This document shows positions 7,764 through 45,446 of a stretch of 64,000 nucleotides of DNA, piece after piece. The translations under genes were made by a program, and so were the position numbers. Source of the DNA: Trigonopsis variabilis (Eukaryota; Ascomycota; Trigonopsidomycetes; Trigonopsidales; Trigonopsidaceae); the NCBI GenBank assembly GCA_003707065.3, contig PPXM03000001.1:682001-746000 (forward strand), in the 5' to 3' direction. The notes under the pieces were generated by a model. It worked only from the letters and a program-made list of their open reading frames with translations. It did not search any database and had not been told where the DNA came from. Position 1 is the first letter of the stretch. Every line of letters starts with the position of its first letter.

Positions 7764-8454
7764 GAGGTAGTTGTGAAGTTACGGCGTTGGGACAAGGAAC
7801 GTAATGGAAACTCGATGTCATTGAGATGGAACCGCAAAACCTTTTATCGGAATAGATCGCTGTTACTGATCCTGAAAGCGGAATTAATCAAATAGTTTCG
7901 TTGACTTCTATTACGGTTATTGTCTAGAGCAAAGTCCATTGATCGTAATGCTGGGGGAATCTTTGAAGCTAAGATCCCATAAAAGAGGATGAGGCCATTA
8001 CTGCGATATCTTCTATGTGTTACTAGTTTCACAGAGGAAACCGATTATTAGTCAGTAGATGATATAAAGAGTTGTTAAGCCTAATAATAGTTCACAATAG
8101 TGGTTCTTATCAAAAATCAGCCTGTTCATGTGCCAGATAAATCAGGATAACTTGGCACCACCGAAGACAATATTGGGCCTGTTATTATTAGGCTATTAAT
8201 TAATGATATATAGTTGGTTCTGAATATCAAAACTAATGCATTCGCTGTGATCTTTCCTATCAGATCGTGTCCCATTTTTCGGTTCCGGGTAACTAAACAT
8301 AGCAGCGAAGACGTTACAATAATTTTAAACTAGCTTATGCTCACAGCCTCATAGTTCATGGTGAACGAACGAGAAATGTAAGCCAGACGCTTTTCGGTAT
8401 TAACAGTGAAGAAGTCCTCCGCGTGATGTAAGCGAGAATGATAAAATAAGTTTT
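7764..8454. other. Intergenic: divergent promoter FES1 / AIR-like
   Basis: About 690 bp between divergent genes. It holds a TTACCCGG-type site at 8285-8292 (listed separately). The upstream part near 8360-8454 has several GTAAG strings, so an additional short 5' exon of the AIR-like gene is possible, but I could not find a version that stays in frame. Confidence 0.45.
8285..8292 (-). promoter_or_regulatory. Reb1-like TTACCCGG site
   Basis: The plus strand reads CCGGGTAA, that is TTACCCGG on the minus strand. This matches the binding consensus of Saccharomyces Reb1. A Reb1-like factor is encoded at 18238-20103, but its specificity in this species is unknown, so the site is only a candidate. 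Confidence 0.3.
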
Positions 8455-9345
8455 ATGAATGAAGGTCTCGTGAATGCGGTAAGTCACCTTGAGATAAAGC
8501 TGACCTTTGTCAAGAGAGGGCAAGGAAGATATTTTGGAGAAGCCGAGAACGAAAAACAGGATAGACAGCACTTCCAGGTTTGCATGAATTGTTTGAAACC
8601 TGGGCACATGGCTGCAAAGTGCCCAAATCTGGTGGTATGTCTACGCTCGTGTCTGCTCTTATTGACCCAACAGTGCCAGCATTGCGGCGTATCTGGTCAG
8701 CATGAAAGCCGACTATGTCCCCAAGTGCGGAGATGCGGTAAATGTGGTAGCCTTGGTCACATAAGGGCCCAGTGTCCGTTGCAGAATGATCGTGTTGTTT
8801 GTTACATTTGCGGATCTCGTTCTCATCTAGGAGAAAATTGTCCTGAAATATGGAGATATTACCATATAAGTCGGAAAAATAAACCGTTGATTCCTCCTGG
8901 ATCCGTACCCATCTATTGCTACAACTGTGGTCAAAGAGACCACTACGGTGACGACTGCCCTATCCCTAAACCTCCATATACCCCCATCTTGAGATCTGCG
9001 TTTGGTAAATATAACTTGAATCCTAGTTCACGAGGAGACCCTAGTCCCGAAAAACGGCCCTGGCGAAATTCTCACTCTTCTCCTTCCTATCAGCCTTATT
9101 CCCGTTCAAGATCTCGCCACGAGCCCCGAGACAACTATTCTGCTGAAAAGAATAACTATAACCAATATAGTCAACCGCACCGAGAATTTGATCCCGAGTC
9201 AGGTCGTGAGAGGTCTCCACGGTCATCAAAAGACCGAAGATCTTCTCGACAGAAACCAAAAAAAAGAAAAAAGCGATCCAATAAAGCAGCAATGGATACG
9301 AACACATCTCGAGGCACTAGAATGCCTCTTAAGCGGATAAGATGA
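8455..9345 (+). CDS. AIR1: Zinc-knuckle protein, AIR1/AIR2-like (TRAMP RNA-binding subunit)
   Basis: CCHC zinc-knuckle protein like the Air subunits that present nuclear RNAs to the poly(A) polymerase of the TRAMP complex for exosome decay. Two introns of 36 nt (8479-8514) and 39 nt (8635-8673) are inferred. Both are stop-free and a multiple of three, so the reading frame stays open across them. Spliced length is 271 residues. Four or five knuckles are visible: CMNCLKPGHMAAKC, CQHCGVSGQHESRLC, CGKCGSLGHIRAQC, CYICGSRSHLGENC, CYNCGQRDHYGDDC. The N-terminal RGQGRYFG motif and the knuckle spacing fit Air proteins. The C-terminus is rich in RS/SR dipeptides and ends in a basic KPKKRKKRSNK tract, a likely nuclear signal. 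A different knuckle protein (CNBP-like) is possible but less likely. The exact start is uncertain. Confidence 0.75.
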   Translation: MNEGLVNAVSHLEIKLTFVKRGQGRYFGEAENEKQDRQHFQVCMNCLKPGHMAAKCPNLVVCLRSCLLLLTQQCQHCGVSGQHESRLCPQVRRCGKCGSLGHIRAQCPLQNDRVVCYICGSRSHLGENCPEIWRYYHISRKNKPLIPPGSVPIYCYNCGQRDHYGDDCPIPKPPYTPILRSAFGKYNLNPSSRGDPSPEKRPWRNSHSSPSYQPYSRSRSRHEPRDNYSAEKNNYNQYSQPHREFDPESGRERSPRSSKDRRSSRQKPKKRKKRSNKAAMDTNTSRGTRMPLKRIR

Positions 9346-9543: not shown

Positions 9544-10095
9544 CTAATGCTGATGTGATTGACCGCCTCCCGGATATGACTGAGCTTGTAATCCTGGCTG
9601 ACCATAGGGAAAGGCGCCTGGTGAAACTCCGAGAGGAGGAAGCGCTCCCGGTGGCGGGAGAGTACCCGGAGGCGGGAGAGCGCCTGGGGGAGGGAGAGAG
9701 CTTGGAGGAGGTAGTGAGCCAAGAGGAGGCGTATAGCTAGGAGGCGGTAGATTTGTAGCAGACTGTCGATGTGCTGCTGCAGTTGGTAGAGGTTTCTGTT
9801 GGTATTGTTGTTGCTCTGCGTACGAGCGAGTAATCGAGTCTATGATCCGTTGATGTTTCTCTTGTCCCAATTCTGGAGTCAGTACTTGATATTTCTTGGG
9901 ACTCACGCTGGTAGTATTCAACTACATTGCGAATATGGTTTCGGCCTGCGTTATGGGCCTTGCGGACACTTCTCGAGTCGTGAGTGAGATATACTGAGCG
10001 TTAGGATAGGAATCAGATATCAGCTACCATCACAGTAGTCGCAAAAATAGTAAATGGTTAGTAATGTGATCGAAAAGGGGACTTATCTTAGGCAT
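9544..10095 (-). CDS. YHC1: U1 snRNP protein C (U1-C / Yhc1)
   Basis: U1-C stabilises pairing of U1 snRNA with the 5' splice site. Exons: 10095-10087 (ATGCCTAAG, MPK), 10049-10028, 9993-9907 and 9872-9544. They join to 447 nt (148 residues) in frame. The mature N-terminus is [31 protein letters not shown], an almost perfect match to the family zinc finger (C6, C9, H24, H30). The first intron (10086-10050, 37 nt) has AT...AC ends; introns 2 and 3 (34 nt each) are GT-AG. The tail is a proline-rich repeat of [17 protein letters not shown] type, as in other U1-C proteins. Without removal of the AT-AC intron the frame shifts and stops after 21 codons. The gene is tail-to-tail with the AIR-like gene. 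Confidence 0.93.
10050..10086 (-). other. AT-AC intron in U1-C
   Basis: This 37-nt intron begins ATAAGT, has a perfect TACTAAC branch site (plus-strand 10057-10063) and ends CATTTAC. It separates codon 3 (AAG) from codon 4 (TAT) of U1-C. No GT donor and AG acceptor in the region can produce the conserved MPKYFCDYCD start. The donor resembles a U2-type site with A at +1 rather than the U12-type ATATCCTT. Confidence 0.85.
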
Positions 10096-10722: not shown

Positions 10723-12123
10723 ATGAGCACCGGAAATATAGGACGATTTGACATTCGAGGAAAGACTGCTGTCGATCCAGCGAGTATTACAAGGATCCAT
10801 ATTTTTGACTTTGATAATACCTGTAAGTGTAGATCGACAACATCAGAATAACATGTTAGTGTTCTGTACTCCAGCTCCGAATCCTCAGTTGTTCTTGTCA
10901 CAGTCTATCTCGCTAATCACAAGTGATACCCACCTTAGTGGCGGAGGATGGTGGAGAGAACCAAAAATCTTACGAGCATGCGGTGAAGGGTTTGAGAAAG
11001 AATCGAAGAGAGCATGGAAAGGATGGTGGAATGAGAGTGTGGTAAAAGCTGCGCGTTTGGCTATATCAGATCCCAATTGTCTAGCGGTGATGCTTACCGG
11101 TAGGCAGCGAGATTCCTTTTCGGATACAATTTCCGAAATATGTCGATCAAAAAATCTAGACTTTGATCTCATCTGCTTGAATTCAAGTCGCTTGTTTGGT
11201 AAGGAGCGTCTAGCCACCTTGGAATTCAAAAACTCCTTTATGGAAGAATTACTAAATGTCTATTCTAATACCAAGACTATCTCCGTTTTTGAAGACCGTC
11301 CCAAACATGCTTATCAATTTCGTCAAAATCTGATGCACTATGCCTCTGCTCATCGACCTGAGCTTTCAGTAATCGTGATCGATGTCTACCCGCTCATTCG
11401 TTATCTTCCGCCAATGACTGAGCGTAATATTGTACAGCAAATGCTTGATGAGAGCTATGCAATGAAGACACAGTCAGGTGTTTTCGATGATGGCCTCTAT
11501 CGACCTTTAGTAATGAAACGCTTGGTCCAGATGACTGGTTACGTCGTTCCTATAAGTACGTCTAATAAACTGATAAAGGAATTCATACCCACTTCCCATT
11601 ATGACCAGGTAGCTTCTAAACCTCTTGTGCCTGAAGGTTCCGATCACGGGCTCGCTCCGCCCGCTCCGGGTAGCACCGTCCAGCGATTCAGATATTTCGC
11701 AGACTGTGTTCCAATCGCCTACGGTAGAATACCGCAACATGTAACTAAGCACCTGGGCGGCTTTGGAAAGAAAAAGACGTTTGTCGTGGAGAAATTTGGA
11801 TTTATCGAAGGCAAAATCTACGCTCTTCAAGTTAAACCAAATGATGCTGAGAAGAATACGTTTCGCTACACTCTGCTACTAGCAAAAAAGAGATCCGCTA
11901 CTATGCGAGATCTCAACAGCATCACAAATTGGACTGCGGTTGAAGAGAATCAGCGAATGGTCATCAACACTACTCTAGATGTAAGTTCTACAACCACATT
12001 TATATACTAACATCACAGGAGATTGCACTAATCAAGATCGAGCCCGATATTGTCACCAATCTCACTCGCAACCAAAAACGGATGCGAGGCAGAAAGAGAA
12101 ACAACTTGACGACTGTGAACTAA
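10723..12123 (+). CDS. HAD-superfamily 'Swiss Army Knife RNA repair'-like protein
   Basis: Fungal protein of the SAK HAD family, a predicted phosphatase-fold enzyme proposed to act in RNA repair; its real substrate is not established. Exons 10723-10822, 10860-11980 and 12019-12123 (introns 37 and 38 nt) give 441 residues. HAD motif I is IHIFDFDNTLF at about residues 27-37, with the intron falling inside the DNT-LF string. Motif II is VMLTGR and the acidic motif is VFEDRPKH. The family-typical GGWWREPKIL follows motif I. The C-terminal half contains a VTKHLGGFGKKKTFVVEKFG segment. The protein ends in a basic tail (TRNQKRMRGRKRNN) that could bind RNA or be a nuclear signal. It converges on FIG1 with 31 bp between the two stop codons. 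Confidence 0.8.
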
Positions 12124-43857: not shown

Positions 43858-45446
43858 CTAAGTACTTCCACTGGTTTTTGCCAATAGCCAGAAGTTATCA
43901 GCATGGTTGAAAGAAAGAAGCTCTTTCGCTTCTGAGTCAGAATTGGTGGAATTGGTTGTCCATTTCTTGAAATTATGGCTCCTCAGAATACCTTCCCACA
44001 CAAGTACACAGGCATTGGAGCCTAGGTCTTCCGGCGGCGGGGTGTCGACAGCAGCATGCGGTTGAGGGTGTTCATTCCATTTAATGCGATTAAGCATTAG
44101 TTTTTTGTAAAATTTGATACTTTTAGCTCCTCCTTCGACAATGACAAGATTGAAATCGGGATTCAAAACAGTCATGCCGTTGAGATGAAGTTGCTGGGCA
44201 TTTATATTAATTTTATAGCGCTGCTGAGGATGCCAAAGAGAATTGATACGGAAAACACAACAGTGGATCCCATGAGCCTCATCAAGCTGAGCCTTTTCCA
44301 GCTCTTTTTGGTGCCGTTGCTCCGGAGTCAACTTTCGAGCTTCATTATCTTCCTCGTGCTTGATACGTCGTTCTTCAACTTCTTTTCTGACCTTTGTTTC
44401 GACCATGGTAGGATCTTGTATAGCCTCGTTGGCCAAGACGCTCATCAAGTTACTTAGTTTTACTTTAGGGGGTGGTGCAGGATCTAGACCTAAACGAATT
44501 CGATCCTGCTTTTCTTTATGTCGTTCAGCACGGTCTGTTTTCCTAATTCGTTTCATCTCTCTCTTAGTTAAATATAATGGTTTGCTATCTGGGAGATTGC
44601 TGAGCCAAGGGGCAGGAATGGGAATAGGATGAAGGATATATTGTGTGATTGGGCTATCAGCGGAATCAATTTTCAGTAATTTCAGGTCATCAAGATCATC
44701 ATATGTCTTGTTAGTCACTAGCGGTTCGTCCCACCATTCTATCGACGGGGGAGCAGGGACCTTAAAGGCCTTTTCGGTATTGTTAAACTCGCTGTCGATT
44801 CCTGCAGTACGACTAGCGGCTTCAATTTTCTTTTTAAGTTCCTCCAGCCGTGCTTGCTGTCTCATCTTACTTGCCTGAGCAATATATTTCCCTTTCTCAT
44901 TAAATACCAAGGCTCGGGGTTTCCTTTCAAGAGCAGTTTCAGAAGGATCAAAATAAGGGTTCTTTGGCGCTATTTGTTCTTCCTTTTCTGGCTTAGGTTC
45001 CTCTTTTCGCTCGTGGCTTGCTGTCCTTTCTGGAGTAGCCAATCGTCCTTCCTGGCCCCGCGAATAATCTGTCTTCGACCGCGTAGGAGTCTTGAGCGCC
45101 AAATCAGACAACAATGGGTGTACATTGACATTTAATCCACCTCCTTTGAGTCTCTCCGATCCGTTTTGATCTTGGCCTTGTAATTTCGCCTTTCTCTCTC
45201 TTATTCTAGCCAGTAAGTCATCTGCTGCGAGTTTCGTTTTCTTCTGCTCTCCTTCTGGCTGTTTGGACTTCATTCTATTAGCTAGAGCAGCCACTCTCCT
45301 CTTAGCGTCCTCTATCTGCCGCTGCTTGTCCGCATCGCTGTGATCCTAGATATTTAGTACTCTTTACTAGCAATTATATCTACCTCGACTCTCGATTTCT
45401 TCCACTTTGGATCTTCCGCCATCCCTTCATGCCTCCTCTTCGACAT
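43858..45446 (-). CDS. PRP3: U4/U6 small nuclear ribonucleoprotein Prp3
   Basis: Binds the U4/U6 duplex in the tri-snRNP. Exons 45446-45384 and 45345-43858 (38-nt intron), 516 residues. The N-terminus MSKRRHEGMAEDPKWKKSRVEDHSD is short. The PRP3 domain spans about residues 150-370 (NPYFDPSETALERKPRALVFNEKGKYIAQASKMRQQARLEELKKKI; VPAPPSIEWWDEPLVTNKTYDDLDDL; YLTKREMKRIRKTDRAERHKEKQDRIRLGLDPAPPPKVKLSNLMSVL). A C-terminal DUF1115 ferredoxin-like domain follows (LNGMTVLNPDFNLVIVEGGAKSIKFYKKLMLNRIKW...CVLVWEGILRSHNFKKW). All parts are in normal order. It lacks the N-terminal PWI domain found in animal Prp3. The gene converges with USO1. Confidence 0.93.

Follow-up and report, generated by a model that had tools for sequence, protein, structure and literature searches.

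A candidate U2-type AT-AC intron in the gene for the U1 snRNP protein U1-C of Trigonopsis variabilis

The window analysed here, the whole stretch of 64,000 nt, carries on its minus strand a small gene whose features are listed in Table 1. The product matched the Pfam family zf-U1 over residues 1-38 (E=1.8e-21), and its residues 1-58 aligned with the human U1-C chain 2vrd_A of the PDB (E=2.6e-18); the MPK encoded by exon 1 corresponds to residues 1-3 of that chain, and an N-terminal zf-U1 zinc finger with MPK..CDYCD..YLTHDS is present. Judged by these sequence matches, the product is U1-C. The coordinates and sequence that the original prediction gave for an AT-AC intron near the start of this gene, and for its flanks, were exact on the minus strand, and the in-frame CDS of 447 nt that it claimed was obtained once introns 1, 2 and 3 were removed. 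The first two zinc cysteines, the ligands Cys6 and Cys9, are carried by exon 2, a microexon of 22 nt that sits between introns of 37 and 34 nt.

Table 1. Features of the U1-C gene and the splicing signals of its first intron
Feature	Position	Strand	Description
U1-C gene	10095..9544	minus	4 exons, CDS 447 nt, product 148 aa
Exon 1, coding part	10087..10095	minus	ATGCCTAAG, ATG CCT AAG (M P K), 9 coding nt
Intron 1, AT-AC	10050..10086	minus	37 nt, phase 0
Donor ATAAGT of intron 1	10081..10086	minus	With exon AG, 7 Watson-Crick pairs to the U1 5' end, A-C mismatch at +1
Branch site TACTAAC of intron 1	10057..10063	minus	Branch point A at 10058, 8 nt upstream of the final base of the intron
Acceptor AC of intron 1	10050..10051	minus	
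Exon 2, microexon	10028..10049	minus	TATTTTTGCGACTACTGTGATG, 22 nt, codes YFCDYCD + 1 base
Intron 2, GT-AG	9994..10027	minus	34 nt, phase 1
Exon 3	9907..9993	minus	
Intron 3, GT-AG	9873..9906	minus	34 nt, phase 1
Exon 4, through stop codon	9544..9872	minus	C terminus proline-rich

The gene lying 3' of and convergent to U1-C (8410-9345) encodes CCHC zinc knuckles (zf-CCHC, 2.6e-14) and showed a weak AIR2-like match below the cut-off; it perhaps encodes an Air1/2-like RNA surveillance factor, arranged tail to tail with U1-C. On the other side lies a divergent gene (10742-12010) with a HAD_SAK_1 domain (1.2e-56), which is found in Swiss Army Knife RNA repair proteins; it and U1-C may have a promoter region in common. 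PRP3, the second splicing gene of the window, was located at 43858-45345 (1.2e-78 and 4.8e-42).

Intron 1 runs ATAAGT...TACTAAC...TTTAC, and its exact removal joins ATG CCT AAG to TAT TTT TGC. Its boundaries are fixed by the protein, as the AT and AC ends cannot slide without altering MPKYF. The signals of the intron were compared with those of 27 GT-AG introns of the window, which were hand-picked by motif and include introns 2 and 3 of U1-C, the others being taken from gene-finder and intron lists made for the same window; because the set was picked for GT-AG ends, it cannot prove that other non-GT-AG exceptions are absent, and it does not reproduce the original count of one such intron among 51. 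At a median of 36 nt these 27 introns are very short, and their branch sites lie 3-9 nt ahead of the acceptor, which makes for a compact intron grammar in an ascomycete-like genome. Intron 1 fell within their range both in length (37 nt; range 32-49 nt) and in branch-to-end spacing (7). With position +1 left out, its donor scored 7.1 against a maximum of 6.0 in the comparison set (27 of 27 lower), and its branch score of 7.04 was level with the best of the 27 (7.0). An exon AG, GTAAGT and TACTAAC were found all together in none of the 27 GT-AG introns, and singly in 10, 4 and 1 of them, respectively. The predicted U1 duplex of intron 1 was weak: 26 of the 27 donors paired more strongly under free duplex folding, and 17 of the 27 in a fixed register.

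Within the window, the strict pattern ATAAGT..TACTAAC..AC occurred once, against 0.07 times per shuffle in 30 dinucleotide shuffles (at most 1 in any of them), and a relaxed AT-AC pattern was not enriched (5 observed vs 7.6 expected); as the relaxed motif is no commoner than chance, the case for the intron is carried by the protein and not by the motif alone. The first version of a home-made gene finder ran away, with 628 introns at its last pass; on the window, the second version predicted 24 genes and the strict version 25 genes and 19 introns, with U1-C predicted by neither. When the strict run was allowed 15 further end-pair classes as a control, the count was 0 for every one of them, AT-AC included; this is uninformative because the U1-C gene itself was missed. 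In a local coding-flank test intron 1 scored -8.1, its flanks of 9 and 22 nt being without measurable coding signal. The test was passed by 0/10 AT..AC, 3/27 GT..AG, 3/26 TT..AT, 2/17 GT..AA, 1/19 GT..AT, 1/14 CT..AT and 1/19 CT..AG candidates; since non-canonical classes pass too, it does not discriminate and was counted neither way.

The assignment of the intron to the U2 type, made in the original prediction, was supported by its length, its branch spacing, the TACTAAC branch site and the donor outside +1 (TAAGT, with G at +5). To the U12 donor consensus ATATCCTTT the donor matched at 3 of 9 positions, and without +1 at 2 of 8, the corresponding values in the 27 GT-AG introns ranging from 1 to 5. 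For the U12 branch consensus TTCCTTAAC, the best match in intron 1 was 6 of 9, with 6 or 7 reached in 10 of the 27 GT-AG introns, and the segment ending in TACTAAC matched at 5 of 9. The U12 donor consensus has been given as RTATCCTT (PMC2846911). The 64-kb window gave no Rfam hit at the gathering threshold, which is weak evidence against minor snRNA genes in the genome. For two other proteins of the window, RPA190 (residues 1-660 of a predicted 1606; 870.8 bits to 4c2m of S. cerevisiae vs 725.7 to 7aoc of S. pombe) and CCT gamma (best match 5gw4 of S. cerevisiae, 881.2 bits), the budding-yeast chains were nearer than any from fission yeast or elsewhere among the matches listed. Intron 1 thus looks like a U2-type AT-AC intron of the major spliceosome, with a likeness to U12 introns no greater than that of the 27 GT-AG introns.

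We consider it quite probable that intron 1, between codons 3 and 4 of U1-C, is a U2-type AT-AC intron that is removed by the major spliceosome, with its other signals compensating for the mismatch at +1. U1 would pair with the exon AG and with positions +2 to +6 (TAAGT) around the one A-C mismatch; the first step would be supported by the perfect TACTAAC, 8 nt from the intron end, and in the second step the first A and the last C would form the non-Watson-Crick contact usually made by G and G. The near-optimal branch site and other donor positions would compensate for the base at +1, so that splicing is probably constitutive and efficient; optimal signals around a single non-standard base suggest efficient splicing and not deliberate leakiness. 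The sequence, frame, protein family and relative scores are observed; that the intron is spliced in vivo, by this route and with this compensation, we infer. Among end pairs in yeast, AT-AC is second in efficiency only to GT-AG and is used by some introns of the major spliceosome, and the same source describes yeast as having no minor spliceosome (PMC6726248).

As to its origin, intron 1 may be a trapped relic, a U12-type AT-AC intron that became U2-type as the lineage lost its minor spliceosome; this is a claim about ancestry, compatible with the U2-type reading, and it appears rather unlikely to us. Sodium-channel introns have been suggested to follow a route from U12 to U2 that keeps the AT-AC ends, with a G gained at +5 and then an A at +4 or a T at +6 (PMC2831892), and the donor of intron 1 has all of +4A, +5G and +6T. 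However, the intron lies in phase 0, which minor introns usually disfavour (PMC10639083), no orthologous U12 intron was seen, and a direct change of both ends from GT-AG is just as possible. Relatives of U1-C were not found with short peptide patterns in viral_contigs and genome_contigs, both collections of non-eukaryotes; one of these patterns, MPKYFCDY, would be interrupted by the intron in a gene of this kind. Human and plant U1-C genes are said to share a splice position between exons 1 and 2 (PMC8458698), which may or may not be that of intron 1.

The presence of an A at +1 had been thought to suggest autoregulation. Retention of intron 1 does lead to the claimed peptide of 21 codons, followed by TGA at 10030..10032 of the minus strand; such a premature stop is not specific, as most introns would give one. 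Autoregulation through intron 1 is not supported and stands as a guess only: in the rest of its donor and in its branch site, intron 1 equals or exceeds the best of the 27 introns, and the expected sign is that of positive feedback. Published structural work describes U1-C as hydrogen-bonding the RNA backbone alone, with no base-specific contacts, and as stabilising in vitro several donors with mismatches, including +1C, +1A being absent from the oligonucleotide table consulted (PMC4383343). Because U1-C helps several mismatched donors, low U1-C would lower U1-C further, a positive loop and not homeostasis. The intron could then be self-sensing, in that a donor with A at +1 needs a U1 snRNP bearing U1-C and falling U1-C yields less U1-C, a competence switch; this we judge unlikely. 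The stabilisation of mismatched donors in vitro, the weak predicted U1 duplex and the 21-codon dead end upon retention speak for such a switch, but +1A is not among the oligonucleotides of that table (PMC4383343), the donor is otherwise optimal, as is the branch site, and the loop would probably be destabilising for an essential factor. Similarly speculative, and improbable to the same degree, is the idea that selection maintains the AT-AC intron of U1-C because it lets the U1 snRNP test its own competence, in which only an intact U1 bearing U1-C would seat the mismatched donor and synthesis would follow a switch-like positive loop; such an intron may descend from a trapped intron of the minor spliceosome. 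Recurrence of this AT-AC intron in the U1-C genes of related fungi would imply selection and not accident, and with the intron conserved, the dependence of U1-C on its own splicing would become directly testable.

A sequence error or a wrong gene model, with the true intron being GT-AG or the N terminus coming from elsewhere, is very unlikely. The gene model comes from a single sequence, but independent errors would be needed at both ends of the intron, and its opposite strand reads GT..AT and not GT-AG, by which an antisense GT-AG intron was also ruled out. As canonical 5' alternatives we counted GT..AG or GC..AG introns whose acceptor lies no further downstream than the TATTTTTGC codon and whose donor lies at most 600 nt upstream of it, with an ATG at most 150 nt from the donor and a frame open into YFCDYCD. 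Twelve were found, all sharing one acceptor inside the putative intron 1, and in none of the 12 did PK or PR precede YFCDYCD. MPK is thus given by 0 of 12 alternatives at the 5' end. The statement that no GT or AG is available is nevertheless not strictly correct, as one open, in-frame canonical choice exists downstream: splicing from the GT inside ATAAGT to the acceptor AG of intron 2 yields MPKIIYLTHDS..., skipping exon 2 and deleting Cys6 and Cys9. The donor of this exon-2-skipping form, taaGTCCCC, scored -3.9, compared with 3.2 to 7.4 in the 27 GT-AG introns, and changing Cys6 to alanine in yeast Yhc1 is lethal (PMC3985668); both points, with the loss of the two cysteines, argue against it as the true model. 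RNA editing of the A at +1 was dropped by reasoning only, because the AC end needs no such help.

We know of no mechanism here whereby more U1-C would cause retention of intron 1, and homeostatic autoregulation, in which an excess of U1-C leads to retention, is highly improbable. The levels of vertebrate U1 proteins are kept in homeostasis by splicing, the known loop acting at a 3' splice site of U1-70K that depends on U1-C and by which U1-C promotes a non-productive form (PMC3798272), but the mismatched donor of intron 1 predicts the opposite sign (PMC4383343). Removal by the minor spliceosome as a U12-type intron is extremely unlikely, for although the ends are AT-AC, the donor match of 3 of 9, the G at +5, the exact U2-type branch site and phase 0 all oppose it, the donor (without +1) and branch matches lie inside the range of the 27 GT-AG introns, and minor introns are without convincing support in Ascomycota or Basidiomycota (PMC10639083).

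AT-AC introns make up 0.019% of annotated fungal introns (PMC7072748), so that finding one in a set of a few tens is unusual; that it sits in a U1 protein gene is striking, though this was noticed after the fact. No report of an AT-AC intron in U1-C was present among the literature matches listed, most subscription journals lying outside the search. Intron 1 belongs to a known and very rare class, the U2-type AT-AC introns, and its address is suggestive. It resembles the U2-type AT-AC introns of sodium-channel genes (AT-AC type II) in its ends, in a major-type donor with G at +5 and in having no U12 donor consensus, and differs from them in being a fungal intron of 37 nt with a perfect TACTAAC in the gene of a U1 snRNP protein (PMC2831892). 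Like the AT-AC protointron of yeast SUT635 and an alternative AT-AC junction of RPL30, it would be handled by a fungal major spliceosome, here on the evidence of sequence; unlike the former, which is non-coding, and the latter, which is an alternative junction, the U1-C intron appears to be required for an essential protein (PMC6726248). No standard intron of Saccharomyces normally has AT-AC ends, according to the same source (PMC6726248). The cross-regulation of U1-C and U1-70K in vertebrates likewise ties U1 protein levels to splicing, a tie that is conjectural for U1-C here, whereas the vertebrate loop employs an alternative 3' splice site of U1-70K and downstream cryptic 5' splice sites, and no AT-AC intron in U1-C (PMC3798272).

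If intron 1 is required for an essential protein of the U1 snRNP, this fungus, which probably has a single spliceosome, can rely on an AT-AC intron to make it, and the intron would offer a natural substrate for the contact between the first and last intron nucleotides.
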